Assembly (NCBI RefSeq): GCF_008728835.1
Contig: NZ_CP042582.1
Coordinates: 4,452,217-4,516,216, forward strand
Length of the DNA: 64,000 nt
DNA from: Hypericibacter adhaerens
GTDB taxonomy: Bacteria > Pseudomonadota > Alphaproteobacteria > Dongiales > Dongiaceae
Direction: 5' to 3'
Shown here: piece after piece, positions 12,318-38,251 of the stretch
Position numbering within the stretch: the stretch's first letter is position 1
How the letters are laid out: every line of letters starts with the position of its first letter
Notes under the pieces: generated by a model
The model's database searches: none
The model's input: the letters and a program-made list of their open reading frames with translations, nothing else
What the model was told of the DNA's origin: nothing
Position numbers and translations under genes: made by a program

Positions 12318-13589
12318 ATGCCTCAAGCCCCCCGTGACCTGCTGCTGAGCCTGTTCCGCGCCGCGCTGTCGGTGGTGGATCCGATGCAGGCCGTGCCGAA
12401 ACATCTGCCCCCGCCGCCCAAGGGCCGCACCATCGTGGTCGGTGCCGGCAAGGCCTCGGCCGCCATGGCGGCGGCGGTCGAGCGTCATTGGCGGGGGCCG
12501 CTCGAGGGGCTGGTGGTGACGCGCTACGGTCATGGCGCGCCCTGCCGGCAGATCGAGGTCGTCGAGGCCTCGCATCCGGTGCCCGACGAGCGCGGCCGCG
12601 ACGCGGCGCGGCGGATCCTCGAGAAGGTCCAGGGCCTCACGCCCGACGATCTGGTGCTGTGCCTGATCTCGGGCGGCGGCTCGGCGCTGCTGTCGCTGCC
12701 GGCACCCGACATCACGCTCGCCGACAAGCAGGCGATGAACAAGGCGCTGCTCAAATATGGCGTCACCATCGCCGAGATGAATTGCGTGCGCAAACATATG
12801 TCGGCGATCAAGGGCGGAAGGCTCGCCGCGGCCGCCTACCCGGCCGAGCTGGTGACGCTGCTGATCTCCGACGTGCCGGGCGACGATCCTTCCGTGGTCG
12901 CCTCGGGTCCCACCGTGCCCGATCCGACCAGCTTCGCCGACGCGCTCGCCGTGATCGAGAAATACAGGATCACCGAGGCACCCGCCGTGACCGAGCGCTT
13001 CCGGCGCGGCCAGGACGAGACGCCCAAGCCCGGCGATCCGCGCTTCGCCCGCGCCCGAACCATCATGATCGCACGGCCGCAGGACGCGCTCGAAGCCGCC
13101 GCCAAGGCGGCGCGCGCTTCCGGCATCGCGCCCATGATCCTCGGCGATTCGATCGAGGGCGAGGCACGCGACGTGGCGCTCGTCCATGCCGGCATCGCGC
13201 GCCAGGTCGCGCGCCACGGCCAGCCCGGCGAGCCGCCGCTCGTCCTGCTGTCGGGCGGCGAGACCACGGTCACGGTCCGGGGCCAGGGGCGCGGCGGGCG
13301 CAATGCCGAGTTCCTGCTGGCGCTGGCGGTGGCGCTCGACGGGCATCCGGGCATCCATGCCATCGCCTGCGACACCGACGGGATCGACGGCACCGAGGAC
13401 AATGCCGGCGCGCTGATGGCGCCCGACAGCCTGGCCCGGGGCTGGGCCAAGGGCGTCAATGCCAAGGCCCTGCTCGCCAACAATGACGGCTATGGCTTCT
13501 TCGAGGCACTTGGCGATCTGGTCAAGACCGGCCCGACCCTGACCAACGTGAACGATTTCCGCGCCATCCTGATCGAGAAGCGGCGCTGA
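12318..13589 (+). CDS. Glycerate 2-kinase, MOFRL family (GckA/TtuD type)
   Basis: A 423-residue enzyme. Landmarks of the MOFRL glycerate kinase family in order: VVGAGKASAAMA near residue 41, LISGGGSALLSLP near 117, VRKHMSAIKGGRLA near 158, DVPGDDPSVVASGPTV near 185, LLSGGETTVTVRG near 312 and GTEDNAGAL near 360. The family phosphorylates D-glycerate to 2-phosphoglycerate; older literature names some members hydroxypyruvate reductase TtuD. A pyruvate kinase gene follows, as in the ttuD-ttuE pair of tartrate-utilising rhizobia. With enolase, the pair would move glycerate from glyoxylate or tartrate metabolism to pyruvate. The start ATG at 12318 follows the exporter gene closely. Confidence 0.9.
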   Translation: MPQAPRDLLLSLFRAALSVVDPMQAVPKHLPPPPKGRTIVVGAGKASAAMAAAVERHWRGPLEGLVVTRYGHGAPCRQIEVVEASHPVPDERGRDAARRILEKVQGLTPDDLVLCLISGGGSALLSLPAPDITLADKQAMNKALLKYGVTIAEMNCVRKHMSAIKGGRLAAAAYPAELVTLLISDVPGDDPSVVASGPTVPDPTSFADALAVIEKYRITEAPAVTERFRRGQDETPKPGDPRFARARTIMIARPQDALEAAAKAARASGIAPMILGDSIEGEARDVALVHAGIARQVARHGQPGEPPLVLLSGGETTVTVRGQGRGGRNAEFLLALAVALDGHPGIHAIACDTDGIDGTEDNAGALMAPDSLARGWAKGVNAKALLANNDGYGFFEALGDLVKTGPTLTNVNDFRAILIEKRR

Positions 13590-26926: not shown

Positions 26927-27279
26927 GACGGGATCCTTGGGAATTCCTGTATCCCTTGGACCCGTTTAAACCTGGGTTAAGGCTACCGGCCATTTCACCG
27001 GAAACCCTGCGTATTACACCTTTGGATAGAGGAGTCGATCGATTGATTCGTTGCCCAACAAACGCTTGGCGATACCGGTTCACCGGCGGCTCCCGATCCG
27101 CGGCCTCGCGTCGCAGGCCGGCGCACGGGACAGCGCCGCTTTCTCCGGCGGCGCGGTGAGATAAGGGTGCCCCATTCGTCAGGCCGGCCGGCACCGTGAT
27201 AGTGTCGGCCCCCCGCACCGATGGCCTGTCGCGGGCAAGCCGCCCCCGATCGCAACCCCACCCCCGGAGCCCCCGCCTG
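26927..27279. other. Divergent intergenic region
   Basis: This 353-bp gap lies between the divergent methyltransferase and DAO-type genes. Its left third is the least GC-rich part of the neighbourhood, with GTTTAAACCTGGGTTAAGG at about 26964-26982 and ATTACACCTTTGGATAGAGG near 27012-27031, where promoters for both genes may lie. I could not define a convincing -35/-10 pair, RNA gene or short coding sequence. Confidence 0.4.
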
Positions 27280-28422
27280 ATGCCCCGTTCTTTCGACGCC
27301 ATCGTGATCGGCGCCGGCATTTCCGGCGCGGCCGCCGCTTACGAGCTGGCCGAGGGACGGCGGGTGCTGATGCTCGAGGCGGAATCGCGGCCGGGCTACC
27401 ATTCGACCGGCCGCTCGGCCGCCCTCTACACGCCCAATTACGGCAACGCGGTCGTGCGGGCCCTGATCCTGGCGGGCCGCCCGTTCCTGGATCGCCCGCC
27501 CGCGGGCTTCACCGACCAGCCTATGACGAAGCCGCGCGGCGCGATCACCATCGCCGGGCCCGCCGACGATGCCATCTTCGAGGAGCGTCTGGCCCTCTCG
27601 GGACCGGGTCATGAGATCCATGAGATTTCGCCCGACGAAGCGGTGCGCCGCGTGCCGATCCTCCGGCGCGAGGTCGTCGCCCGCGCGCTTTACGAGACCG
27701 ACATCGAGGATATGGATGTCGCGCGCATCCATCAGGGCTTTCTCACCGGTTTCCGCCATCGTGGCGGCGAGCTCGTCTGCGACGCGCGGGCCGATCGGAT
27801 CGAGCGCCGGCCGGACGGATGGGAGATCCGCGCCGGCGATGTCGTGGCGACGGCACCCGTCCTCGTCAATGCGGCCGGCGCCTGGGCCGACGAGGTCGCG
27901 ACGCTCGCCGGCCTGCCGCCGGTCGGGCTCGTTCCCAAGCGGCGCACCGCCATCCTCGTCGATCTCCCGCCGGGTGCCGATCCCGCGTCATGGCCGGCGC
28001 TCGACGATTGCAGCAACGAGCATTATTTCCGGCCGGACAGCGGCACCCGGCTGATGGTCTCGCCGGCCGACGAGACACCCTCGCCGCCTTGCGATGCGCA
28101 GCCGGACGAGATGGACGTGGCCTATCTGGTCGACTGGCTCGAGCGCACCACCACGCTCCAGGTCCGGCGCCTGCCGCATCAATGGGCCGGCTTGCGCAGC
28201 TTCGTGGCGGACCACAGCCCCGTGGTCGGCCCCGACCCGCTGGCCCCGGGCTTCTATTGGCTCGCCGGGCAGGGCGGCTACGGCATCATGCTGGCGTCGC
28301 CCCTGGCGCGCGGCCTCAAGGGCCTGATCGATGCCGATGCGCTGCCGGCCGACCTGATCGAGCAGGGCGCCACGGCCGCGGCCCTGGCGCCGCGCCGGCC
28401 GGGGCTCGCATCGGCAAGCTGA
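27280..28422 (+). CDS. FAD-dependent oxidoreductase of the DAO (D-amino-acid/glycine oxidase) family
   Basis: A 380-residue flavoenzyme. The Rossmann dinucleotide fold is DAIVIGAGISGAAAAYELAE at the N-terminus, followed by LEAESRPGYHSTGRSAA, with the conserved HSTGRSA region where the flavin contacts the substrate site. The second FAD segment, LVNAAGAWADEVATLAG near residue 196, and the C-terminal GFYWLAGQGGYGIMLASPL complete the DAO fold. It would oxidise an amine or D-amino acid to an imine and pass electrons to O2 or a carrier. Cis-4-hydroxy-D-proline is a possible substrate given the hydroxyproline genes 20 kb upstream, but this is speculative. The start at 27280 was preferred to an upstream GTG or ATG. 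Confidence 0.85.
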   Translation: MPRSFDAIVIGAGISGAAAAYELAEGRRVLMLEAESRPGYHSTGRSAALYTPNYGNAVVRALILAGRPFLDRPPAGFTDQPMTKPRGAITIAGPADDAIFEERLALSGPGHEIHEISPDEAVRRVPILRREVVARALYETDIEDMDVARIHQGFLTGFRHRGGELVCDARADRIERRPDGWEIRAGDVVATAPVLVNAAGAWADEVATLAGLPPVGLVPKRRTAILVDLPPGADPASWPALDDCSNEHYFRPDSGTRLMVSPADETPSPPCDAQPDEMDVAYLVDWLERTTTLQVRRLPHQWAGLRSFVADHSPVVGPDPLAPGFYWLAGQGGYGIMLASPLARGLKGLIDADALPADLIEQGATAAALAPRRPGLASAS

Positions 28423-28534
28423 TCCCTCGGCGGTTCGGGCCTTCCGGCCCCGACGCCCGATCCCTATGATCCGGCGCAGGATGGACGGTCCGGAACGCAA
28501 GGCTCCGGCCGCAACGAACGGGAGTGCGAAGGCG

Positions 28535-29464
28535 ATGGCGCAGCTGGCCAATGAACGGGTCGCTTATTTCAACGGCCGGATCGTCCCCGAAAGCGACGTG
28601 CTGATCCCGTTCCGCGATCGCGGCTTCATCGCCGGCGACGCCGCCTTCGACACGGCGCGCTCCTTCGGCCACAAGATCTTCCGCCTCAAGGAGCATATCG
28701 ACCGTCTCTACCGCTCGCTGCGCTATCTGCGGATCGATCCGGGCCTCTCGCCGAAGGAGATGACGGCGATCACCGAGGATGTGTTCGCGCGCAACCGCCA
28801 TCTGCTCGACCGGGACGACGATTACTGGGTAAGCCAGCGCATCTCGCGCGGCGTGCCGGCCGACGATCTCACGGTGAAAAGCGACGCCACGCCCACCGTG
28901 ATCGTCGAATGCAAGCCCCTGCCGCTGAAGCAGCGCGCCAAGCTCTTCCGCGACGGAATCGAGGTGGTGGTGCCCTCGGTGCGCCGCGCGGCCCCCGACA
29001 TGCTGAGCCCGCGCGCCAAGACCCACAACTATCTCAACCTCACCATGGGCGATATCGAGGCCCGCGAGCGCAACCCGAACGGCTGGGCGATCCTGCTCGA
29101 CGAATCCGGCAACATCGCCGAGGGCACCGGCAGCAACTTCTTCATGGTGCGCGACGGCGTGGTGATGACGCCGCAATCGCGCTATGTGCTGCCCGGCGTG
29201 TCGCGCGCCGTGACGATCGAGCTCGCGGCCAAGCTCGGGATCGCTTGCGAGGAGCGCGACATCGATCTTTACGACGCCTACACGGCCGACGAGGCCTTCC
29301 TCACCTCGACCAGCCTCTGCATCTGCCCCGTGCGCAGCATCAACGGCCGCGCGGTCGCCGAGGCCGCCATCCCGGGCCCCGTCACCCAGAAGCTCATCGA
29401 CGCCTACGCCGAATTGGTTGGCATGGATTTCGTCGGCCAATATCTGCGTCGCATCGAGGGCTGA
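28535..29464 (+). CDS. Class IV aminotransferase (branched-chain/D-amino-acid type)
   Basis: A 309-residue PLP enzyme of fold type IV. AYFNGRIVPESDVLIPFRDR at the N-terminus and FIAGDAAFDTARSFGHKIF are usual. The PLP-binding lysine is in AKTHNYLNLTMG near residue 160, with the SGNIAEGTGSNFFMV block near 195. The family includes branched-chain aminotransferase, D-amino-acid transaminase and aminodeoxychorismate lyase; residue patterns do not settle which. An in-frame ATG at 28466 would add 23 residues; I chose 28535 because the conserved sequence starts just there and GAAGGCG precedes it. It lies 112 bases after the DAO gene on the same strand. Confidence 0.85.
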   Translation: MAQLANERVAYFNGRIVPESDVLIPFRDRGFIAGDAAFDTARSFGHKIFRLKEHIDRLYRSLRYLRIDPGLSPKEMTAITEDVFARNRHLLDRDDDYWVSQRISRGVPADDLTVKSDATPTVIVECKPLPLKQRAKLFRDGIEVVVPSVRRAAPDMLSPRAKTHNYLNLTMGDIEARERNPNGWAILLDESGNIAEGTGSNFFMVRDGVVMTPQSRYVLPGVSRAVTIELAAKLGIACEERDIDLYDAYTADEAFLTSTSLCICPVRSINGRAVAEAAIPGPVTQKLIDAYAELVGMDFVGQYLRRIEG

Positions 29465-29483
29465 GACTCCGGCTCCCGCCCCG

Positions 29484-31307
29484 GTGTCCGGCTCCCCTCC
29501 CGGGACGAAGGCGACGGACGAGACATTGCCGTCGATCGAGCAGGGCCTGGCGCTGCATCGCGCGGGCCGGCTCGACGATGCGGCGGCGCTCTATGCGCGC
29601 CGGCTGGCGCAGCGGCCGGACGACGCGGAGAGCCTCCATCTCCTGGGACTGATCCGCCAGCAGCAGGGATCGCCGCAGGCGGCGGTGCCGCTGATCGAGC
29701 GCGCCTGTGCGCTCGAACCCAGGGTCCCGCTCTTTCGCGCCAACCTCGCCATCGTGCTCAGCGCCGCCGGCCGATCCGCCGAAGCGATCGCGGCCGCTTC
29801 CGAAGCGGTGGCGCTGCAGCCCGGCAATGCCGATCTTCTCTTCACCCTTGCCACCATGCTGGAGCAGGGCGGCCGGCTCGCGGAGGCCGAGGCCAGCTAT
29901 CGCGCCGCCTTGGAACGCCGGCCCGACCATGCCGACGCCGCCTACAATCTCGCGCGCCTGCTGCATAAGCGCGAGGCGCTTGCCGACTCCGTGCCCTTCT
30001 ATCGCCGGGCGCTGGCGAGCCGGCCCGGTTTCGTCAGCGCGCTGATGAATCTGGGCTCGGCCCTCGGGCGGCTCGGCGAGATCGAGGAAGCCACCTCGCT
30101 GCTGGCGCGCGCCCGACAGCTCGAGCCGCAGAACCCGCATCCGGTCGCGGCGCAGGGACTGCTCGCGGCCGATCGCGGCGACCTCGCGGAAGCGACGGCG
30201 ATCCTGGCGCGGCTCGCCCATGCGCCCATGGATCCGGTCCTGCTTCACCAGCTGGGCACGCTCGCCCGGCAGACCGGCCGCTTCGAGGAGGCCATCGGCT
30301 ATTTCGAGAAGGTCCTCGCCCGGGCGCCGGACAGCACGGACGCCCGGCTGTCGATCTCGCTGATGCGGCTCACGCTCGGCCGGTTCGCCGACGGATGGCG
30401 CGACTACCGCTCGCGCTGGTATCTCGCGCCTCACACCAATCTCGCCAGGCGCTATCCGGGTCCCGCCTGGGCCGGCGAGCCGTTTCCGGACCGAACCGTG
30501 CTGGTCTATCCCGAGCAGGGCATGGGCGACGTCATCCAGTTCGCGCGCTATTTGCCGCTGGCCGCCGCGCGCGGCGGGCGCGTGATCTTCGAATGCCCGG
30601 CCGCCCTGCGACGGCTGTTCCAGCCCTTTCACGAGAACGTCACGGTCGTCCCGCAAGGATCGCCGCTGCCGGCCGCCGATCTCTCGGTGCCGCTGCTGGA
30701 CCTGCCGATCCTGTTCGACACGAGGCTCGAGACCGTGCCGCCCCTGCTCCCGAACCTCGCGCCCGATCCCGGACTGGTCGCAAGCTGGGCCGCGAAGCTG
30801 GAGCCGGGCCGGCAGCGGGGCTTGCGCATCGGCCTCGTCTGGCGCGGCAATCCCGGCTTCGCCAACGATCGCAACCGTTCCCTCGATCTGGCGCACCTGC
30901 GCCCCTTGATCGAGGGTTCGAGGGCGCAATTCATCTCGCTGCAGAAGGGCCCGGCCGCGGCCGAGATCGCCGCCAACGGCTGGCAAGACCGCATCCTCGA
31001 TCTGGGTCCTGAGCTCGGCGACTTCGCCGACACGGCGGCCGTGATCGCGGGGCTCGATCTGGTCCTCAGCGTCGACACCGCGGTCGCCCATCTCGCCGGC
31101 AGCCTCGGCCGGCCCGTCTGGATCCTGATTCCGTTCATTCCCGACTGGCGCTGGCTCTTCGCCCGCGCCGACAGCCCCTGGTATCCGAGCGCGCGCCTGT
31201 TCCGGCAGAAGAGCCCGGGAGATTGGGCGCCGCCCGTCGCCGAGATCGGCGCGGCGCTGCAGCGCGTCTCGCCGCCGGTCGACGGGCCGGGAGCGGCACC
31301 GCGATGA
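29484..31307 (+). CDS. TPR protein with GT9-like glycosyltransferase C-terminal domain
   Basis: About 607 residues from the GTG at 29484. Residues 15-320 are a series of roughly nine tetratricopeptide repeats (for example AEASYRAALERRPDHADAA). The C-terminal half resembles the heptosyltransferase (GT9)/TPR fusion family: LVYPEQGMGDVIQFARYLPL near residue 338, GLRIGLVWRGNPGFANDR near 446 and LSVDTAVAHLAGSLGRPVW near 527, the usual sugar-nucleotide-binding end. An upstream ATG at 29418 overlaps the aminotransferase gene and encodes no family-like sequence. The gene overlaps the following GT41 gene by ATGA. It is predicted to transfer a sugar, possibly onto a protein bound by the TPR superhelix. 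Confidence 0.8.
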   Translation: MSGSPPGTKATDETLPSIEQGLALHRAGRLDDAAALYARRLAQRPDDAESLHLLGLIRQQQGSPQAAVPLIERACALEPRVPLFRANLAIVLSAAGRSAEAIAAASEAVALQPGNADLLFTLATMLEQGGRLAEAEASYRAALERRPDHADAAYNLARLLHKREALADSVPFYRRALASRPGFVSALMNLGSALGRLGEIEEATSLLARARQLEPQNPHPVAAQGLLAADRGDLAEATAILARLAHAPMDPVLLHQLGTLARQTGRFEEAIGYFEKVLARAPDSTDARLSISLMRLTLGRFADGWRDYRSRWYLAPHTNLARRYPGPAWAGEPFPDRTVLVYPEQGMGDVIQFARYLPLAAARGGRVIFECPAALRRLFQPFHENVTVVPQGSPLPAADLSVPLLDLPILFDTRLETVPPLLPNLAPDPGLVASWAAKLEPGRQRGLRIGLVWRGNPGFANDRNRSLDLAHLRPLIEGSRAQFISLQKGPAAAEIAANGWQDRILDLGPELGDFADTAAVIAGLDLVLSVDTAVAHLAGSLGRPVWILIPFIPDWRWLFARADSPWYPSARLFRQKSPGDWAPPVAEIGAALQRVSPPVDGPGAAPR

Positions 31308-33679
31308 ACGCGAAGGCACCCCCGCCCGAAACCAAGCCCGTCAGCGGCGATCCGTCGGCGCTGTTCGATGCGGCGGTCAGGGCCTTCTCGGAAGGCCGGG
31401 CCGCGGATGCCTGCCGGCAATGCAAGATCCTGCTCGAGGTCGCCGCCGACAATCGCGACGTGCTGCATCTCTATGCCGCCGCCGCCGCGATGAGCGGCGA
31501 TACGCGCACCGCCATCGCCGCCAGCGAGCGCCTGATCAAGCTGGCGCCCGACCATGCGGAGGGGCGCCGCAACCTGGGGGCGCTGCTCGCGAACCAGAAC
31601 CGCCATGCGGAGGCGCGCGCTCATCTGGAGGCGGCGGCGAAGCTCGCCCCCGGCCATATCGGCGGACGGCTGATGCTGGCCCGCAGCCTGCGCAGGCTGG
31701 GACTGGCCGAGGAGGCGAAAGCGGAGGTCGAAACCGCGACGCAAGCGGCGCCGGACAATGCCGAGGCGCAGCTCCTGCTCGGCAATCTGCGTCTCCAGAG
31801 CGGTGACCGGGAGGGCGCGTTGCGCGCCTTCGCCCGCGCGCTGGCCCTGCGTCCGGACCATGTCGAGACGCTGGTCAATCTCGGCGTCGCCCTGCGCGCA
31901 AGCCGGCGCAGCGACGAGGCCCGGCTCGTGCTGCGCCGCGCGCTCGCCCTGCAGCCCGGATCGGCCTCGGCCCATTTCAACCTCGGCACCCTGGCGCTCG
32001 ACGGCGGCGCCCATGAGGAGGCGATCGGCCACTACCGGACGGCGCTCGAGAATGGCGGCGACGCCACCAGCCTCCATCGCAGCATCGGACTGGTCCATCT
32101 GCTGCGCCGCGACCGCGAGGCGGCCATCGCCGAGTTCAAGCTCGCGCTGGCCGCGGCGCCCGAGGATCCCGACACGCTGGTGATGATGGGCGATGCCCTG
32201 TCGGAGCTGCGCCGCGTGGCGGAAGCGACGGACTGCTTCCGCCGCGCCTTGGCCAAGGTGCCGCGCCATCCGCAGGCGATCCCGCGCCTGTTCCACCAGG
32301 CGCTGCAGGCTTGCGACTGGGAGGAGGCACAACGCCTGAAGCCGTTGGTGGATGCCCTCACCGACGAGGCGCTGGCCCGGGGCGACGCGCCCGAGGAGGC
32401 CGCCTTCCTCAGCCTCGCCCATGCCGAGGATCCGGCCCGCCATGCCGCGATCGCACGGGCCTTGAGCGCGCAGGCCGCGCGGCGGGCCGGAACGCCCCTG
32501 GTTCTCGCCGATCGGTCGCGTTCGGAGGGCCAGCGCCTGAAGCTCGGCTATCTCTCGGCCGATTTCCGCAACCATGCGGTCTCGCAGCTCCTGGTCCGCA
32601 CGCTGGAGCTGCATGACCGGTCGCAGTTCGAGGTCTGGGCCTATTCGACCGGCCCCGAGGACCGCAGCGCGCTGCGCGAACGCGTGCGCGACGGGGTCGA
32701 CGCCTTCATCGATATCCGCGAGCTCGACCATCGCTCGGCGGCCGAGCGGATCGCCAAGGACCAGGTCGATATCCTGATCGACCTGACGCTGCATACGACG
32801 GGTGCGCGCCTGGAGATTCCGGCCCTGCGCCCGGCGCCGGTCCAGATGGGATGGCTCGGATTTCCCGGCAGCAGCGGCGGCGACTTCTTCGACTATCTCC
32901 TGACCGACAGGATCGTCACGCCGCCGGAGCAGGCGCCGCTCTATAGCGAGCAGCTGGCCTATCTGCCGGAGATCTTCCAGCCCAACGACGACCGCCAGCC
33001 GATCGCGCCCGGCCGGGCCAAACGCAGCGAATACGGCCTGCCCGAGGAGGGTTTCGTGTTCTGCTCCTTCAACCAGGCCTACAAGATCGAGCCCGTGCTG
33101 TTCGATCTCTGGATGGAGCTCCTGCGCGAGGCGCCGGATTCGGTGCTCTGGCTCCATCGCCACAACGAGACGGCGCCGGCCAACCTTCAGCGCGAAGCGG
33201 CGAAGCGCGGCGTGGCGCCCGAACGGCTGGTCTTCGCCGACCGGCCCGAGAAACCCGTTCATCTGCGCCGCCTCGCGCTGGCGGATCTCGCTCTCGACAC
33301 CCGTCTCTATAACGGCCACACCACCAGCAGCGACGCCTTGTGGGCGGGCGTGCCGGTGCTGACGATCCGCGGCGGCCATTATGCGGCGCGTGTCTCGGCC
33401 AGCGTCCTGGCCGCGATCGGCCTGCCCGATCTCGTGGCGGGCGATCTCGAGACCTACCGCGCCACGGCCCTCAAGCTGGCCCGCGACCCGGCGGCGCTCG
33501 CCAACGTCAAGGCGCGCCTGGCGCGCAACCGCACGAGCCTGCCGCTCTTCGACAGTCCCCGCTTCACGCGGCATCTCGAGGCGGTCTATCGGGCGGCCTG
33601 GCAACGCCGTGAGGCAAATCTGCCGCCGGCACCGATCGATGTGAAGCCCTTGCCCAGAACTCCCGCCCGCCATGGCTGA
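31304..33679 (+). CDS. TPR-GT41 protein O-GlcNAc-transferase-like glycosyltransferase
   Basis: A 791-residue protein. Residues 15-330 are TPRs (for example AHFNLGTLALDGGAHEEA). From about residue 410 it has the GT41 catalytic module (SPINDLY/OGT type): LGYLSADFRNHAVSQLLV with the conserved His near 421, LEIPALRPAPVQMGWLGFPG near 505, VFCSFNQAYKIEP near 586 with the Lys that contacts UDP, and YNGHTTSSDALWAGVPVL near 670. The family transfers GlcNAc, or fucose in plant SPY, to Ser/Thr of proteins. It overlaps the upstream gene by ATGA and the downstream one by eight bases, so all three are translationally coupled. The cytoplasmic target is unknown. Confidence 0.9.
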   Translation: MNAKAPPPETKPVSGDPSALFDAAVRAFSEGRAADACRQCKILLEVAADNRDVLHLYAAAAAMSGDTRTAIAASERLIKLAPDHAEGRRNLGALLANQNRHAEARAHLEAAAKLAPGHIGGRLMLARSLRRLGLAEEAKAEVETATQAAPDNAEAQLLLGNLRLQSGDREGALRAFARALALRPDHVETLVNLGVALRASRRSDEARLVLRRALALQPGSASAHFNLGTLALDGGAHEEAIGHYRTALENGGDATSLHRSIGLVHLLRRDREAAIAEFKLALAAAPEDPDTLVMMGDALSELRRVAEATDCFRRALAKVPRHPQAIPRLFHQALQACDWEEAQRLKPLVDALTDEALARGDAPEEAAFLSLAHAEDPARHAAIARALSAQAARRAGTPLVLADRSRSEGQRLKLGYLSADFRNHAVSQLLVRTLELHDRSQFEVWAYSTGPEDRSALRERVRDGVDAFIDIRELDHRSAAERIAKDQVDILIDLTLHTTGARLEIPALRPAPVQMGWLGFPGSSGGDFFDYLLTDRIVTPPEQAPLYSEQLAYLPEIFQPNDDRQPIAPGRAKRSEYGLPEEGFVFCSFNQAYKIEPVLFDLWMELLREAPDSVLWLHRHNETAPANLQREAAKRGVAPERLVFADRPEKPVHLRRLALADLALDTRLYNGHTTSSDALWAGVPVLTIRGGHYAARVSASVLAAIGLPDLVAGDLETYRATALKLARDPAALANVKARLARNRTSLPLFDSPRFTRHLEAVYRAAWQRREANLPPAPIDVKPLPRTPARHG

Positions 33680-36600
33680 AGCCGGCCCCTCCGACAAGCC
33701 TGCGGCAGCGGCCTCCCCGACATTGGCCGCGGCCGTGGCCGCCTTCCAGGCCGGCAGGCGCTCGGAAGCGAAGGCGCTCTGCGAGGCGATCCTCGCGCGC
33801 GCGCCCGACGATGTCGAAACGCTGCATCTGGCCAGCGTGATCGCGGCCGCGCAGAACGATGTCGAGACGGCCGTCGCCATGGCGCGCCGCGTCATCGCGA
33901 TCGATCCGCACCATAACGAGGCGCAGCACAATCTGGGATCGCTGCTCGCGACCCAGGGCCGGCTGGCGGAAGCTCTGCCGTTCCTGGAGCGGGCCGCCGC
34001 CCGCGACCCGTTCGGCCCCACCACCATCGTCAATTTCGCCTCCGCCCTGCGCGAGCTCGGCCGCCATGAGGAGGCGATCACGGCCCTCGACCGCCTGCTG
34101 CACCGCACGCCCGATCATGCGGAGGCGCTGCGTCAGAAGGGGCTGGCTCTGATGGCGCTCTCCCGCGTGCCTTCGGCGGTGGCCCTGTTCCAGCGCTCGG
34201 CCGAGATCGAGCCGCGCGCGCAGACCTTCAACGATCTCGCCGGCGCGCTCTGGCTCAAGGGCGAGCTGACCAACGCGCTGGCCGCCGCCCGCGAGGCGCA
34301 GCGGCTCGAGCCCCATAACGAGATGATCGCGGCCCGGCTGCTGCAGCAGCTGAGCCAGGCCTGCGACTGGCGCGAGACCCCGGCCCTGCTCCGGCAGGTC
34401 CGGCGGCAGCGCGCGAACGCGCTGGCCCTGAACCGGCCGCTCTACGAGACGCCCCTCTCCATGGTCGGCTATGACGACGACCCGGGCGCCAATCTGCGCA
34501 TCGCGGCGCTCCATGCGCGCGCGGCCGAGCGCCGGGCGGGAACGCCCCTGGTTCTCAGCCGCGGCCCGCGCCGCGAGGGGCCGATCACCGTCGGCTATCT
34601 GTCGCGGGATTTCCGCGAGCATGCGGTGGCGCAGCTCATGGTCCGCTGCCTCGAGCGCCATGACCGGCAGGCGGTGCGCGTCCATGCCTATGCCTACGGA
34701 TCGCCCGACGACAGCGCGATGCGCCAGCGCGTTCGCGCGGCGGCCGACAGCTTCGTCGATCTGGGCGCGCTGGATCATCGCCGCGCGGCGGAGCGGATCG
34801 CCGCCGACGAGGTCGACATCCTGGTCGAGCTCACCGGCCATACCTCCGGGACGCGGCTCGAGATCGCGGCGCTGCGCCCGGCGCCGATCCAGGTCGCCTG
34901 GCTCGGATTCCCCGGCACGATCGGCAGCCGCTATCACGATTACATCCTGGCCGACCGCACCGTGGCGCCGCCCGCCGATGCCCGCTATTTCAGCGAACGG
35001 CTGGTCTGGCTGCCGGACAGCTATCAGCCCAACGACGAGACGCGGACCATCGCCGCGGAGCCCGCTTCGCGCCGCGAGGTCGGCCTGCCGGACGATGCCT
35101 TCGTCTTCTGCTCCTTCAACCAGGGATACAAGATCGAGCCCGTCATGTTCGGGCTCTGGATGGAGCTCCTGAAGACGCTGCCGCAGGCTGTGCTCTGGCT
35201 CTGGCGCCCGAACGACATGAGCGACGAGAACCTCCGGCGCGAGGCGGCCGAGCGCGGCGTCGATCCCGCCCGGCTCCATTTCGGCCTGCGCCTGCCCAAG
35301 GAGCAGCATCTGCGCCGGCTGCAGCTCGCCGACCTGGCGCTCGACACGCGCATCTATAACGGCCACACCACCACCAGCGACGCGCTCTGGGCGGGCCTCC
35401 CGGTGGTGGCGCTCGAGGGCCGCCATTTCGCGAGCCGCGTCTCGGCCAGCCTCCTGCGCGCCATCGGCCTGCCGGAGCTGGTGGCCGGCAGCCTCGACGC
35501 CTATCGCGACCTGGCGCTGGAGCTCGCGCGGCATCCTCGCAAGCTCGCGGCGCTGCGCGCCCGGCTCGCGGCCAACCGCACCGCCGCGCCGCTCTTCGAC
35601 AGCGCCCGCTTCGCGCGCGGTCTCGAAGCGGCCTATAGCGCGATGATGTCGCGCCTGCGCGTGGGCTTCCCGCCGGCGGCGACCGCCATCCGTTTCGAGA
35701 GCGACGGGCGGACCGTGGCGACCTATGACGAGCTGGCCTTGCCCGCCCGGACGGCCGACGCGCTCGATCATATCGCCAGGGCCGCCGCGCATTATCAGTC
35801 GCGGCGCTACGATCAGGCCCTCGTCGCCCTCGACCGGGCGCTGTTCGACGATGCGAGCTTCCTCGAGGCGCGGATCCAGAAGGGCGTGATTCTGGCGGCG
35901 AAGGGCGACCGCGCCGGCGCGCTGAAGAGCTTCGAGGCCGTGCGTGCCGAGCAGCCGGACCATCCGCTGCTGGCCTCGCGCCTCGGAAGCCTTCTGATCG
36001 ATCTCGAACGCCATGACGAGGCGCAGCGCCTGCTCGATGCGGCGCTGGCGGCCGACCCCGAGGATCTGGATGCACTCGCGGAGCGGTCGCGCCTCTCGCG
36101 CCAGAACGGACGCCTGGCGGAGGCGCTCGCCTTCGCCGATCGCGCCCTGGCGCTGCAGCCCTTCCACGCCGCCGCGCTGACCGCGCGCGGCGATGCGCTG
36201 ATGGCGCTAGGGCGCGCCGAAGAAGGGGCGGTGGCGCTTCAGACCGCGATCGCGCGCGATCCCAACACGCGCCACGCCCATCGGCTGCTCGGCAATCTCG
36301 CGCGGGCGCAGAAGAACCTGCCGCAGGCGGTCGAGTACTACCGGCGCGCCATCGCGATCGATCCGCTGGACGAGGTCGCGACCGCCAATTGCGCGCTGGA
36401 GCTGGGCTATCTGGGCGACTGGGCGCGGCTCGAGGAGATCAAGCCGCGCCTCAAGGCCCTGGCGAGCCGCGCGCTGGCGAACGGACGGCAACCGGGGATC
36501 ACGCCCTTCGCGGTGCTGGCTTTCGTCGAGGAGCCCGAGATCTGCACCGCGGTCGCGCGCGCCTGGGCCGAGGCGATGGAGCGTCGTATGGCGCCTTATC

Positions 36601-37763
36601 GCCAGACCTATCCGTCCGTGCCGCGCCCTAGTCCCGAGGGGCGCCTCAGGATCGGCTATCTCTCCGGCGATTTCTCGGCCCACGCCACGATGCAGCTCAT
36701 GCGCGGCCTGATGCGCCGCCATGACCGGCGCGCGATCGAGGTCTTCGCCTATGCGACCAATCCTTCCGACAATTCCGACTATCGGCGCGCCGCCGAGCGG
36801 GAGCCGGATCATTTCCGCGACCTCTCGGCGCTCGATCCCGGCCGCGCCGCTCAGGCCATCGCCGGGGATTGCATCGACATCCTGGTCGACCTGAAGGGAT
36901 GGACCAACGGCGCGCGGCTGGAGATCCCGGCACTGAGGCCCGCCCCGCTGCAGGCGACCTGGCTGGGATTCCCCGGCAGCACCGGCGCGCGGTTCTTCGA
37001 TTATGTGCTGGGCGACGCGATCGTGACGCCGCCCGAAGCTCAATCCTATTTCACGGAACAGATCGTCCGCCTGCCCGGTTCCTACCAGGTCAATGACCGC
37101 GACCGGCCGATCTGGCCCGAACCGACCAGCCGCGCGGCCGAGGGCCTGCCGGAGAACGCGCTGGTGCTGGCGAGCTTCAACCAGGGTTACAAGATCGAGC
37201 CCGTCATGTTCGGGCTCTGGATGGAGCTGCTGCAGGCGCTGCCGCAGGCCGTGCTCTGGCTCTGGCGCGGCAATGACGGCATCGAGCCCAACCTCAAGAA
37301 GGAAGCCGCCCTGCGCGGCGTCGATCCGGCGCGGCTGATCTTCGCCGGCCGCGCCACCACGCAGCGCCATCTGCGCCGGATCGGGCTCGCCGACCTGGCG
37401 CTCGATCCGCGCATCGTCAACGGCCATACCACCACCAGCGACGCGCTCTGGGCGGGCCTGCCGGTGGTGACGCTCAAGGGCGCCTATTTCCCGGCGCGCG
37501 TCTCCGCGAGCCTGCTGCAGGCCGTGGGGCTGCCGGAGCTGGTCGCCGAAAGCCTCGGGCACTACCGCGAGATCGTGCTGCGCTACGGGCGCGATCCGGC
37601 GGCGCTCGCGGGCCTCAAGGCGAAGCTCGCCGCCAACCGGCTGACGGCACCGCTGTTCGATACCGATCGCTTCGCCCGCAAGCTCGAAGCCGCCTATCGC
37701 GCGATGTGGCGGCGCCATTGCGCCGGCCTCGCGCCGGCACCGATCGATGTCCCGGAGCCCTGA
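33672..37763 (+). CDS. Giant protein with two tandem TPR-GT41 (OGT-like) modules
   Basis: A 1363-residue protein with no break in frame. Module 1: TPRs at about residues 15-240, then GT41 from about 300 to 660 (VGYLSRDFREHAVAQLMV near 307, FCSFNQGYKIEPVMFGLWME near 478, YNGHTTTSDALWAGLPVV near 562). Module 2: TPRs at about 690-900, then GT41 from about 985 to 1360 (IGYLSGDFSAHATMQLM near 991, SFNQGYKIEPVMFGLWMELL near 1166, NGHTTTSDALWAGLPVVTLK near 1249). Both keep the DFxxHA histidine, the YKIEP lysine and the GHTTTSDALWAG loop, so both may be active. The two halves are similar enough to suggest duplication and fusion. It overlaps the preceding gene by eight bases. Confidence 0.9.
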   Translation: MAEAGPSDKPAAAASPTLAAAVAAFQAGRRSEAKALCEAILARAPDDVETLHLASVIAAAQNDVETAVAMARRVIAIDPHHNEAQHNLGSLLATQGRLAEALPFLERAAARDPFGPTTIVNFASALRELGRHEEAITALDRLLHRTPDHAEALRQKGLALMALSRVPSAVALFQRSAEIEPRAQTFNDLAGALWLKGELTNALAAAREAQRLEPHNEMIAARLLQQLSQACDWRETPALLRQVRRQRANALALNRPLYETPLSMVGYDDDPGANLRIAALHARAAERRAGTPLVLSRGPRREGPITVGYLSRDFREHAVAQLMVRCLERHDRQAVRVHAYAYGSPDDSAMRQRVRAAADSFVDLGALDHRRAAERIAADEVDILVELTGHTSGTRLEIAALRPAPIQVAWLGFPGTIGSRYHDYILADRTVAPPADARYFSERLVWLPDSYQPNDETRTIAAEPASRREVGLPDDAFVFCSFNQGYKIEPVMFGLWMELLKTLPQAVLWLWRPNDMSDENLRREAAERGVDPARLHFGLRLPKEQHLRRLQLADLALDTRIYNGHTTTSDALWAGLPVVALEGRHFASRVSASLLRAIGLPELVAGSLDAYRDLALELARHPRKLAALRARLAANRTAAPLFDSARFARGLEAAYSAMMSRLRVGFPPAATAIRFESDGRTVATYDELALPARTADALDHIARAAAHYQSRRYDQALVALDRALFDDASFLEARIQKGVILAAKGDRAGALKSFEAVRAEQPDHPLLASRLGSLLIDLERHDEAQRLLDAALAADPEDLDALAERSRLSRQNGRLAEALAFADRALALQPFHAAALTARGDALMALGRAEEGAVALQTAIARDPNTRHAHRLLGNLARAQKNLPQAVEYYRRAIAIDPLDEVATANCALELGYLGDWARLEEIKPRLKALASRALANGRQPGITPFAVLAFVEEPEICTAVARAWAEAMERRMAPYRQTYPSVPRPSPEGRLRIGYLSGDFSAHATMQLMRGLMRRHDRRAIEVFAYATNPSDNSDYRRAAEREPDHFRDLSALDPGRAAQAIAGDCIDILVDLKGWTNGARLEIPALRPAPLQATWLGFPGSTGARFFDYVLGDAIVTPPEAQSYFTEQIVRLPGSYQVNDRDRPIWPEPTSRAAEGLPENALVLASFNQGYKIEPVMFGLWMELLQALPQAVLWLWRGNDGIEPNLKKEAALRGVDPARLIFAGRATTQRHLRRIGLADLALDPRIVNGHTTTSDALWAGLPVVTLKGAYFPARVSASLLQAVGLPELVAESLGHYREIVLRYGRDPAALAGLKAKLAANRLTAPLFDTDRFARKLEAAYRAMWRRHCAGLAPAPIDVPEP

Positions 37764-37828
37764 CCGCGCGGCGCTCCGACGATCGGCCGCGATCCGTCTC
37801 GTCCCCCGGCGCCAAGGAGGCCGGTCCC

Positions 37829-38251
37829 ATGCATTACCGCCGCAGCCGTTTCAGCCATTTCGCCAACTGGATCGCCCGCGCCTCGGGCCATCCGCTCGCC
37901 TTCATGACCGCTTGCGCGATCATCGTCGTCTGGGCCGTCACCGGGCCGATCTTCGCCTGGTCCGACACCTGGCAGCTCGTCATCAATACCGGCACGACCA
38001 TCGTCACCTTCCTGATGGTGTTCCTGATCCAGAACACGCAGAACCGCGATTCCCACGCGGTGCAGCTCAAGCTCGACGAGCTGATCCGCGCGGTCGAGGG
38101 CGCGCATAACGCGCTGCTCGACATCGAGGAGCTGAACGAGGAGGAGCTCGCGCATATGCGCCGGCGCTATGCGGCGCTGGCGGCCCGCGCGCGCGAAGCG
38201 GTCAGGCAGGGCCGGAAGGACACCGATGCCCTGGAGCTCGATGCGGATTAG
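37829..38251 (+). CDS. Low-affinity iron permease family small membrane protein
   Basis: A 140-residue protein with two membrane helices in the N-terminal half (PLAFMTACAIIVVWAVTGPI and NTGTTIVTFLMVFLIQNTQN) and a charged helical C-terminus with LKLDELIRAVEGAHNALLDI. This is the pattern of the bacterial low-affinity iron permease (Fet4-like, PF04120) family; NTGTTIVTFLMVFLIQNTQNRD is its strongest signature region. Iron transport is not demonstrated for most bacterial members. The ATG at 37829 follows a strong AAGGAGG. It lies 65 bases after the double-GT41 gene, and its last four bases overlap the convergent regulator gene. Confidence 0.85.
   Translation: MHYRRSRFSHFANWIARASGHPLAFMTACAIIVVWAVTGPIFAWSDTWQLVINTGTTIVTFLMVFLIQNTQNRDSHAVQLKLDELIRAVEGAHNALLDIEELNEEELAHMRRRYAALAARAREAVRQGRKDTDALELDAD

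Follow-up and report, generated by a model that had tools for sequence, protein, structure and literature searches.

The genome of Hypericibacter adhaerens carries, within the 64,000-nucleotide stretch analysed here (the window; contig NZ_CP042582.1, positions 4,452,217 to 4,516,216 of the forward strand), a gene whose single reading frame encodes two glycosyltransferases of family GT41 in tandem, each preceded by its own array of tetratricopeptide repeats (TPRs). Taken singly, each module is an ordinary GT41, and the tandem arrangement is the variant. We propose, with a probability of about one half, that this double gene arose by fusion of diverged paralogues, that both halves are working GT41 enzymes, and that they most likely use different donor sugars. 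The donor sugars and the bacterial targets of GT41 enzymes are largely unsettled; PMC9715652 reports that TtOGT showed no O-GlcNAc activity in vitro and XcOGT none on bacterial lysates. A single protein with two intact sites that differ at the proposed gate of the donor pocket provides an internal control for comparing donors and for swapping gates.

Two GT41 modules in one uninterrupted frame

The double gene runs from an ATG to its stop codon without internal stops and encodes 1363 amino acids (coordinates of this and all other features are collected in Table 1). The Pfam profile Glyco_transf_41 (PF13844) matches the protein in four stretches with 657.6 bits (cut-off 25, E = 1.5e-197), many TPR families match ahead of each catalytic domain, and in a scan of the genome each of the two modules scores above the PF13844 cut-off. 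The order TPR-GT41-TPR-GT41 in one frame, proposed earlier in a sequence-only reading of this DNA, is borne out by the open frame and the four profile stretches. That reading had also seen a DFxxHA histidine, an FNQGYKIEP lysine and a GHTTTSDALWAG loop in both halves, and exact placing confirms all three: the first motif begins at residue 313 as DFREHA and at residue 1000 as DFSAHA, FNQGYKIEP at 482 and 1169, and the loop at 564 and 1251. The residue numbers originally given (307, 478 and 562; 991, 1165 and 1249) fell in the right region and were off by about 2-13 residues. The bounds of the two catalytic domains (303-655 and 990-1342) were set after subtracting the 9 frame residues that precede the ATG.

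Neighbouring genes in this cluster share a few bases at their ends, so a small sequencing or assembly error could join two of them into one frame. Such an origin is extremely improbable. Another species of the same genus (genome G001) encodes an orthologue of 1369 residues that is 78% identical over query residues 4-1362, has no stops and lies among the same neighbours; the double frame is therefore neither chance nor an assembly error, and we rejected the sequencing error that the sequence-only reading had itself raised. Between the two species (the H. adhaerens genome, G000, and G001) the ratio of nonsynonymous to synonymous substitution rates (dN/dS) is 0.27 over the whole frame, 0.49 in the linker between the modules, and 0.24 and 0.19 in the catalytic domains of modules 1 and 2, values which argue that both modules are maintained by purifying selection. 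The linker is 45% identical between the species, with a beta hairpin predicted at about residues 670-686.

Structural models predict an OGT-like fold for each module, a TPR superhelix followed by a GT-B fold of two Rossmann lobes. The model of module 1 (residues 1-671, 31-row alignment) has a mean predicted local distance difference test score (pLDDT) of 92.7 and a predicted template modelling score (pTM) of 0.90. Its best match is XcOGT (2xgs; Z 50.9, root-mean-square deviation (rmsd) 1.6 over 474), with human OGT crystal structures at Z of about 42 and SPINDLY at up to 41. A model of residues 225-1363 (29-row alignment, mean pLDDT 85.9) again matches XcOGT best in module 2 (2vsn; Z 52.0, rmsd 2.2 over 530), followed by human OGT at about 45 and SPINDLY at up to 43. 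Structure prediction, which had been suggested along with the sequence-only reading, thus supports the fold of each module, and the pTM of 0.65 for residues 225-1363 leaves the mutual placement of the modules and the distance between their sites unfixed.

Active sites and the proposed donor gate

Catalytic and donor-site residues were compared in the numbering of human OGT (hOGT), transferred through a phmmer alignment to chain 7ntf_A; the usual numbers are the chain numbers minus 40, and those other than K842, D554 and C917 are the ones we take to be in standard use. D554 is named in the title of structure entry 5hgv, K842 in PMC4683255 and C917 in PMC9715652. Both modules agree with hOGT at 10 of the 12 positions compared (D554, H558, R637, Q839, K842, H901, H920, T921, T922 and D925), which include the core triad D313/H317/K487 of module 1 and D1000/H1004/K1174 of module 2. 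At the remaining two, module 1 has Lys543 and module 2 Thr1230 for K898, and Tyr562 and Val1249 stand for C917. Retention of the residues of the uridine diphosphate (UDP) site in both halves, which the sequence-only reading had named as a check, is borne out at these 10 positions, with module 1 matching at K898 also and neither module at C917. Profile scores above the cut-off, the residues at the D554, H558 and K842 positions and the fold of the predicted models all place each module in PF13844.

The position of C917 is the proposed gate, and the difference between the modules there is a new point, absent from the sequence-only reading. This residue has been argued to determine how large the donor pocket of GT41 enzymes is (PMC9715652, section 12); according to the same source, the gate is Cys in human OGT, Tyr in SPINDLY (SPY), XcOGT and TtOGT, and Phe in ApHMW1C, and changing Y744 of SPY to Ala or Cys strongly lowers activity. 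The pair Tyr/Val recurs in G001, and Tyr/Cys is found in an unfused pair of GT41 genes in another genus of the family (genome G002, described below). Because the gate residue differs between them, the two modules most likely accept different donor sugars.

XcOGT (2jlb, 2vsn, 2xgs) and TtOGT (5djs) likewise combine TPRs with a GT-B catalytic domain and lack the intervening domain of eukaryotes; they have the same core residues and, like module 1, a Tyr gate, and each module matches XcOGT at Z of about 50; they differ in being single-module enzymes, whereas module 2 of the double protein has a Val gate. Human OGT has 10 core and donor positions in common with both modules, and its crystal structures match at Z of about 41-45, but it has an intervening domain, a Cys gate and one module, where the double protein has no such domain, Tyr and Val gates and two modules. 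The best rows for SPINDLY, a plant protein O-fucosyltransferase of GT41 (Z 41 with module 1 and 43 with module 2), show a large rmsd over the TPRs and 23-26% identity in the structural alignments; its Tyr gate is that of module 1, not the Val of module 2, and is found in XcOGT and TtOGT as well. The profile for HMW1C-like N-glucosyltransferases (NF049992) gives the protein 38.1 bits against a cut-off of 1000, and the Cys gate of O-GlcNAc transferase proper is absent from both modules (Tyr562, Val1249). In FlmG, the flagellin glycosyltransferase of Caulobacter, a TPR domain binds flagellins and the C-terminal domain transfers the sugar (PMC7591256). FlmG resembles the modules in its N-terminal acceptor-binding TPR domain, its separate C-terminal GT-B-like domain and its cytoplasmic location; it differs in its length of 596 residues and its one glycosyltransferase domain, and is not termed GT41 in PMC7591256.

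By analogy with FlmG, the TPR superhelix ahead of each catalytic domain would hold an acceptor protein, onto which the GT-B domain would transfer a sugar from a nucleotide sugar. Each half would be a cytoplasmic GT41 glycosyltransferase, probably working, with one donor admitted by the Tyr562 gate of module 1, as in SPINDLY, XcOGT and TtOGT, and another by the Val1249 gate of module 2, a small residue comparable to the Cys of human OGT. Since the modules differ both in their TPR arrays and in their gates, the chain probably acts in two distinct ways, on one acceptor or on two, either making two different modifications or adding two sugars in succession.

It is conceivable, if rather unlikely, that both modules instead act with the same donor and that the fusion only tethers enzymes whose different TPR arrays recognise separate acceptors, or separate sites on the same acceptor. 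Such a tether would suit the core residues kept in both modules, the lower identity of the TPR arrays (28%) than of the catalytic domains (62%), and the grouping of the modules in the C-lobe, where SPINDLY binds nucleotide; it sits poorly with a gate difference that the sister species has retained and that recurs, in the form of Tyr versus Cys, in the unfused pair. A chain in which a single module is catalytic and the other serves as a binding or regulatory part is improbable, given that the core is kept in both and that catalytic dN/dS is lower in module 2 (0.19) than in module 1 (0.24), even though the K898 position of module 2 is occupied by Thr1230 and the genome holds a GT41-like paralogue without the core (L011:10355-13708), so that loss does occur here.

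Several observations weigh against two working modules with different donors. At the K898 position module 2 has Thr1230, although this position varies widely and is Lys in 21 of 76 domains. In the same set the gate is Tyr in 40 domains, Val in 11, His in 9, Phe in 5, Cys in 5 and Trp in 2, with four others or a gap; within this genome, which has 15 such domains, it is Tyr in 11, Val in 2, Phe in 1 and Trp in 1, the second Val belonging to an open reading frame (ORF) next to a flagellin gene. Since the gate varies among single-module paralogues too, differing gates in two modules are not in themselves unusual. The gate rule, moreover, rests on few enzymes and may not extend to bacterial donors. 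Among the 10 neighbouring ORFs scanned, no sugar-nucleotide gene or obvious acceptor gene was recognised.

Origin of the double gene

The halves had been said to resemble each other closely. They are in fact 47% identical to each other, compared with 48% (module 1) and 45% (module 2) to the product of the adjoining upstream gene, U, which encodes a single TPR-GT41 module. Taken by part, modules 1 and 2 share 62% identity in their catalytic domains and 28% in their TPR arrays, the latter in keeping with the different arrays that the sequence-only reading had envisaged.

In G002, two single-module GT41 genes, a and b, lie 2 bases apart (locus L103; the stop codon of the first ends at 12534 and the ATG of the second is at 12537), flanked, as the double gene is in the window, by the oxidoreductase gene (62% identity) and the permease gene (81% over 91 residues). 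Their best matches are to query residues 11-671 (53% identity) and 933-1358 (57%), and the TPR array of gene a is 44% identical to that of module 1 and 30% to that of module 2. Because the syntenic place in G002 holds two separate adjoining genes, the double gene is better explained by paralogues that lay side by side and became fused. The one-to-one pairing of the G002 genes with the halves is weak, which tells against this account: the catalytic domain of gene b is 59% identical to module 1 and 60% to module 2, and its TPR array is closer to module 1 (35%) than to module 2 (26%). At the Q839 and K898 positions gene a carries Arg and Ala, and gene b has Lys at K898. Gene b is therefore the counterpart of module 2 by place, and not clearly by descent.

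Phylogenetic trees give a divided answer. A tree of catalytic domains with 75 rows places both modules in one group of 16 rows (support 98/96) drawn wholly from G000, G001 and G002, whose inner order the tree leaves unsettled. Three partial domain matches were left out, as was the fragment G238_C313_1863, which is kept in the 76-domain residue table; row L105 was removed from alignment A1 to give A2. A 29-row tree of the whole catalytic domain joins modules 1 and 2 at 72/75, and the approximately unbiased (AU) test rejects none of three alternatives, which join module 2 with G002 b (p-AU 0.344), module 1 with G002 a (0.092) or both modules with G002 b (0.089). The best tree of the N-lobe does not pair the modules, the pairing not being rejected (p-AU 0.212), and the tree of the C-lobe pairs them at 92/94. 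The 29-row trees, those of the single lobes included, and a 78-row tree referred to below are of chosen subsets, the last built by a quick method. The sister relationship of the halves proposed in the sequence-only reading is thus neither shown nor rejected: it appears in the whole domain and the C-lobe and is missing from the best N-lobe tree. At fourfold degenerate sites in residues 500-590, 37 of 43 agree between the modules versus 36 of 50 in the orthologous pair of module 1, a small excess that is only a hint of gene conversion between modules.

Direct internal duplication of one module within one gene, rather than fusion of older paralogues, would account for the pairing of the modules in the best 29-row tree (72/75) and in the C-lobe tree (92/94), for their likeness at fourfold sites (37/43), and for the fact that the second unfused G002 gene is no clear counterpart of module 2. 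We nevertheless regard it as unlikely. The unfused pair stands at the same place in G002, each half is as near to U as to the other half, the TPR arrays are unlike, and the N-lobe tree lacks the pairing; the C-lobe signal, for its part, could be explained by local gene conversion, the excess over 36/50 being small. Given the trees, simple tandem duplication was not accepted as a proven origin. These comparisons fit best with the fusion of two adjoining GT41 paralogues, each with its own TPR array, which had come from a local expansion and had diverged before they were joined; their C-lobes may have exchanged sequence later. From the earlier suggestion of duplication and fusion, fusion is retained, backed by the unfused pair, and direct duplication is not established.

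Multi-GT41 proteins in other genomes

Proteins with several GT41 modules also occur outside this genus, and the notion that a double GT41 protein is a rarity was dropped, since both the family (G011) and a phylum sample hold more. Within the order, represented by 17 genomes of one family, a double GT41 ORF occurs in at least G000, G001 and G011. In the phylum sample (398 genomes including G000), 10 further genomes (G427, G450, G467, G470, G485, G496, G506, G513, G520 and G531) together have 14 ORFs of 2-4 GT41 modules each. Two candidates were scored per genome, 19 stretches were checked and only ORFs read from stop to stop were counted; 10 of 398 is a lower bound because other long frames (for example in G478, G460, G553, G431 and G453) were left unchecked. 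Outside the genus of H. adhaerens, multi-GT41 ORFs are 1426-3781 aa long, three of the 14 from the phylum sample running off a contig end, and Pfam finds six, eight and four GT41 stretches in three multi-module ORFs with 3, 4 and 2 modules. In the family of G506 (18 genomes), a multi-GT41 ORF is present in all seven genomes of genus g364 and in two or more of the 11 genomes of genus g351, the remaining nine of which were partly checked.

The D554, H558, K842 and T922 positions are kept in all 37 modules of the 10 genomes, and R637 in 36. The seven donor-loop letters compared are not uniform within any of the 14 ORFs: two or more modules always differ, in some cases by one or two letters, although two modules of one G531 ORF share their letters. 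Place by place, G450, G470 and G496 have nearly the same donor-loop letters in their three-module proteins, and in the 78-row tree the modules of this lineage group by place and those of G513 and G531 within their own genomes. Multi-GT41 ORFs lie on other branches of the GT41 tree and are therefore apparently of separate origins; those of the window and G001, of G011, of the G506 family and of G531 look like separate cases.

Tentatively, we consider it possible that poly-GT41 proteins, with 2-4 TPR-GT41 modules and several origins, are assembly-line-like cytoplasmic protein glycosyltransferases, whose modules would each keep a full active site, have donor pockets of their own, conserved by position, and add several different sugars to a bound protein in a set order. 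The window protein would be the two-module case, with one Tyr-gated and one Val-gated site. If multi-module GT41 chains do act in sequence, they would be ordered builders of protein glycans in the bacterial cytoplasm.

Individual loci show further arrangements. The G011 ORF (L105:2936-9382, minus strand; 2149 aa) combines two GT41 modules with two FkbM methyltransferase stretches and falls in another part of the tree. In G485, each of the four GT41 modules of a 3781-aa ORF (L122:1253-12595, minus strand) retains the catalytic core. Locus L133 of G427 contains one double and five single-module GT41 ORFs in a row on one strand, with one more on the opposite strand, the kind of array that could give rise to fusions.

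In a class sample (385 genomes; two candidates per genome, E at most 1e-80), no other double was found in the loci scanned, of which 29 were short (flanks of up to 1.5 kb, where a second module can be missed) and five longer (G017, G059, G305, G068 and G331). A 1694-aa open frame of G017 resolved into separate ORFs, one of 885 aa and one of 756 aa, and apparent doubles in G059, G444, G457, G481 and G720 were adjoining single-module ORFs. No relative was found among viral contigs. Among plasmids, 67 records match at 1e-40; the best 40 places listed span about 1.1-2 kb, or one module each, and where coverage exceeds 80% in these, both query modules match the same place. A genome-contig collection gave one weak match, to residues 78-834. 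A literature search, whose scope excluded most subscription papers, found no description of tandem GT41 modules; sequence and domain databases may well already list such architectures.

Gene neighbourhood and genome context

The double gene is the third of three tightly packed glycosyltransferase genes, following the TPR-GT9-like gene and U (Table 1); a LysR regulator and an MttB-family gene are also nearby. The listed frame of the iron permease begins within the 3' end of the double gene. Its start is probably nearer 37814-37826, past the stop of the double gene, because the G001 match begins at residue 37. In G001 an extra single GT41 gene (L102:9831-11903) sits between U and the double gene. 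Its TPR part is closest to module 1 (51%), its catalytic domain to U (76-78%); by these identities the gene is a mosaic, a sign of exchange among neighbours.

Table 1. Features of the double GT41 gene and its surroundings, in window coordinates.
Feature	Position	Strand	Remarks
FAD (flavin adenine dinucleotide)-dependent oxidoreductase (DAO)	27196..28422	+	left syntenic anchor; common to G001 (85%) and G002 (62%)
Class IV aminotransferase	28466..29464	+	upstream neighbour; G001 has one too
TPR + GT9-like glycosyltransferase gene	29418..31307	+	TTG start of ORF, true start unsure; overlaps U by 4 bases
TPR-GT41 gene U, one module, 791 aa	31304..33679	+	upstream gene; overlaps double gene by 8 bases
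TPR-GT41-TPR-GT41 double gene (P0001), 1363 aa	33672..37763	+	open from ATG to stop
Module 1 TPR array, residues 16-252	33717..34427	+	seven helix pairs in model
Module 1 GT41 catalytic domain, residues 303-655	34578..35636	+	
His317, module 1	34620..34622	+	hOGT H558 position
Lys487, module 1	35130..35132	+	hOGT K842 position
Tyr562, module 1	35355..35357	+	donor-gate residue; hOGT C917, SPY Y744 position
Inter-module linker, residues 660-692	35649..35747	+	
Module 2 TPR array, residues 693-936	35748..36479	+	seven helix pairs in model
Module 2 GT41 catalytic domain, residues 990-1342	36639..37697	+	
His1004, module 2	36681..36683	+	hOGT H558 position
Lys1174, module 2	37191..37193	+	hOGT K842 position
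Val1249, module 2	37416..37418	+	donor-gate residue
Low-affinity iron permease family gene	37706..38251	+	right syntenic anchor; G001 83% over 145 residues, G002 81% over 91 residues

The genome (one contig, 5,865,246 bases) has 14 ORFs carrying 15 GT41 domains, the double ORF alone having two. Matches to Flagellin_N lie at 3.89-3.91 Mb and 4.533 Mb, and the double gene, at 4.486-4.490 Mb, is not beside them. Adjacency to flagellin genes was taken as a hint of the FlmG type and not as its definition. The flagellin-adjacent GT41 gene of this genome is another one, L016:4508-7246 (minus strand), which has a Val gate, adjoins the flagellin gene G000:C1:3906428-3906832 and is a candidate FlmG-like flagellin glycosyltransferase.

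Two further GT41 loci of this genome stand out. The GT41-like ORF L011:10355-13708, like L106:9962-12721 in G001, has lost the Asp/His/Lys core and lies on a long tree branch; it is a possible pseudoenzyme or decayed copy in both species. The 1354-aa frame L011:7197-11258 (G000:C1:1295196-1299257) reads TPR-GT41-TPR with a GT9-family match near its end, so that GT9-like and GT41 units, which are separate adjoining genes in the window, are fused there.

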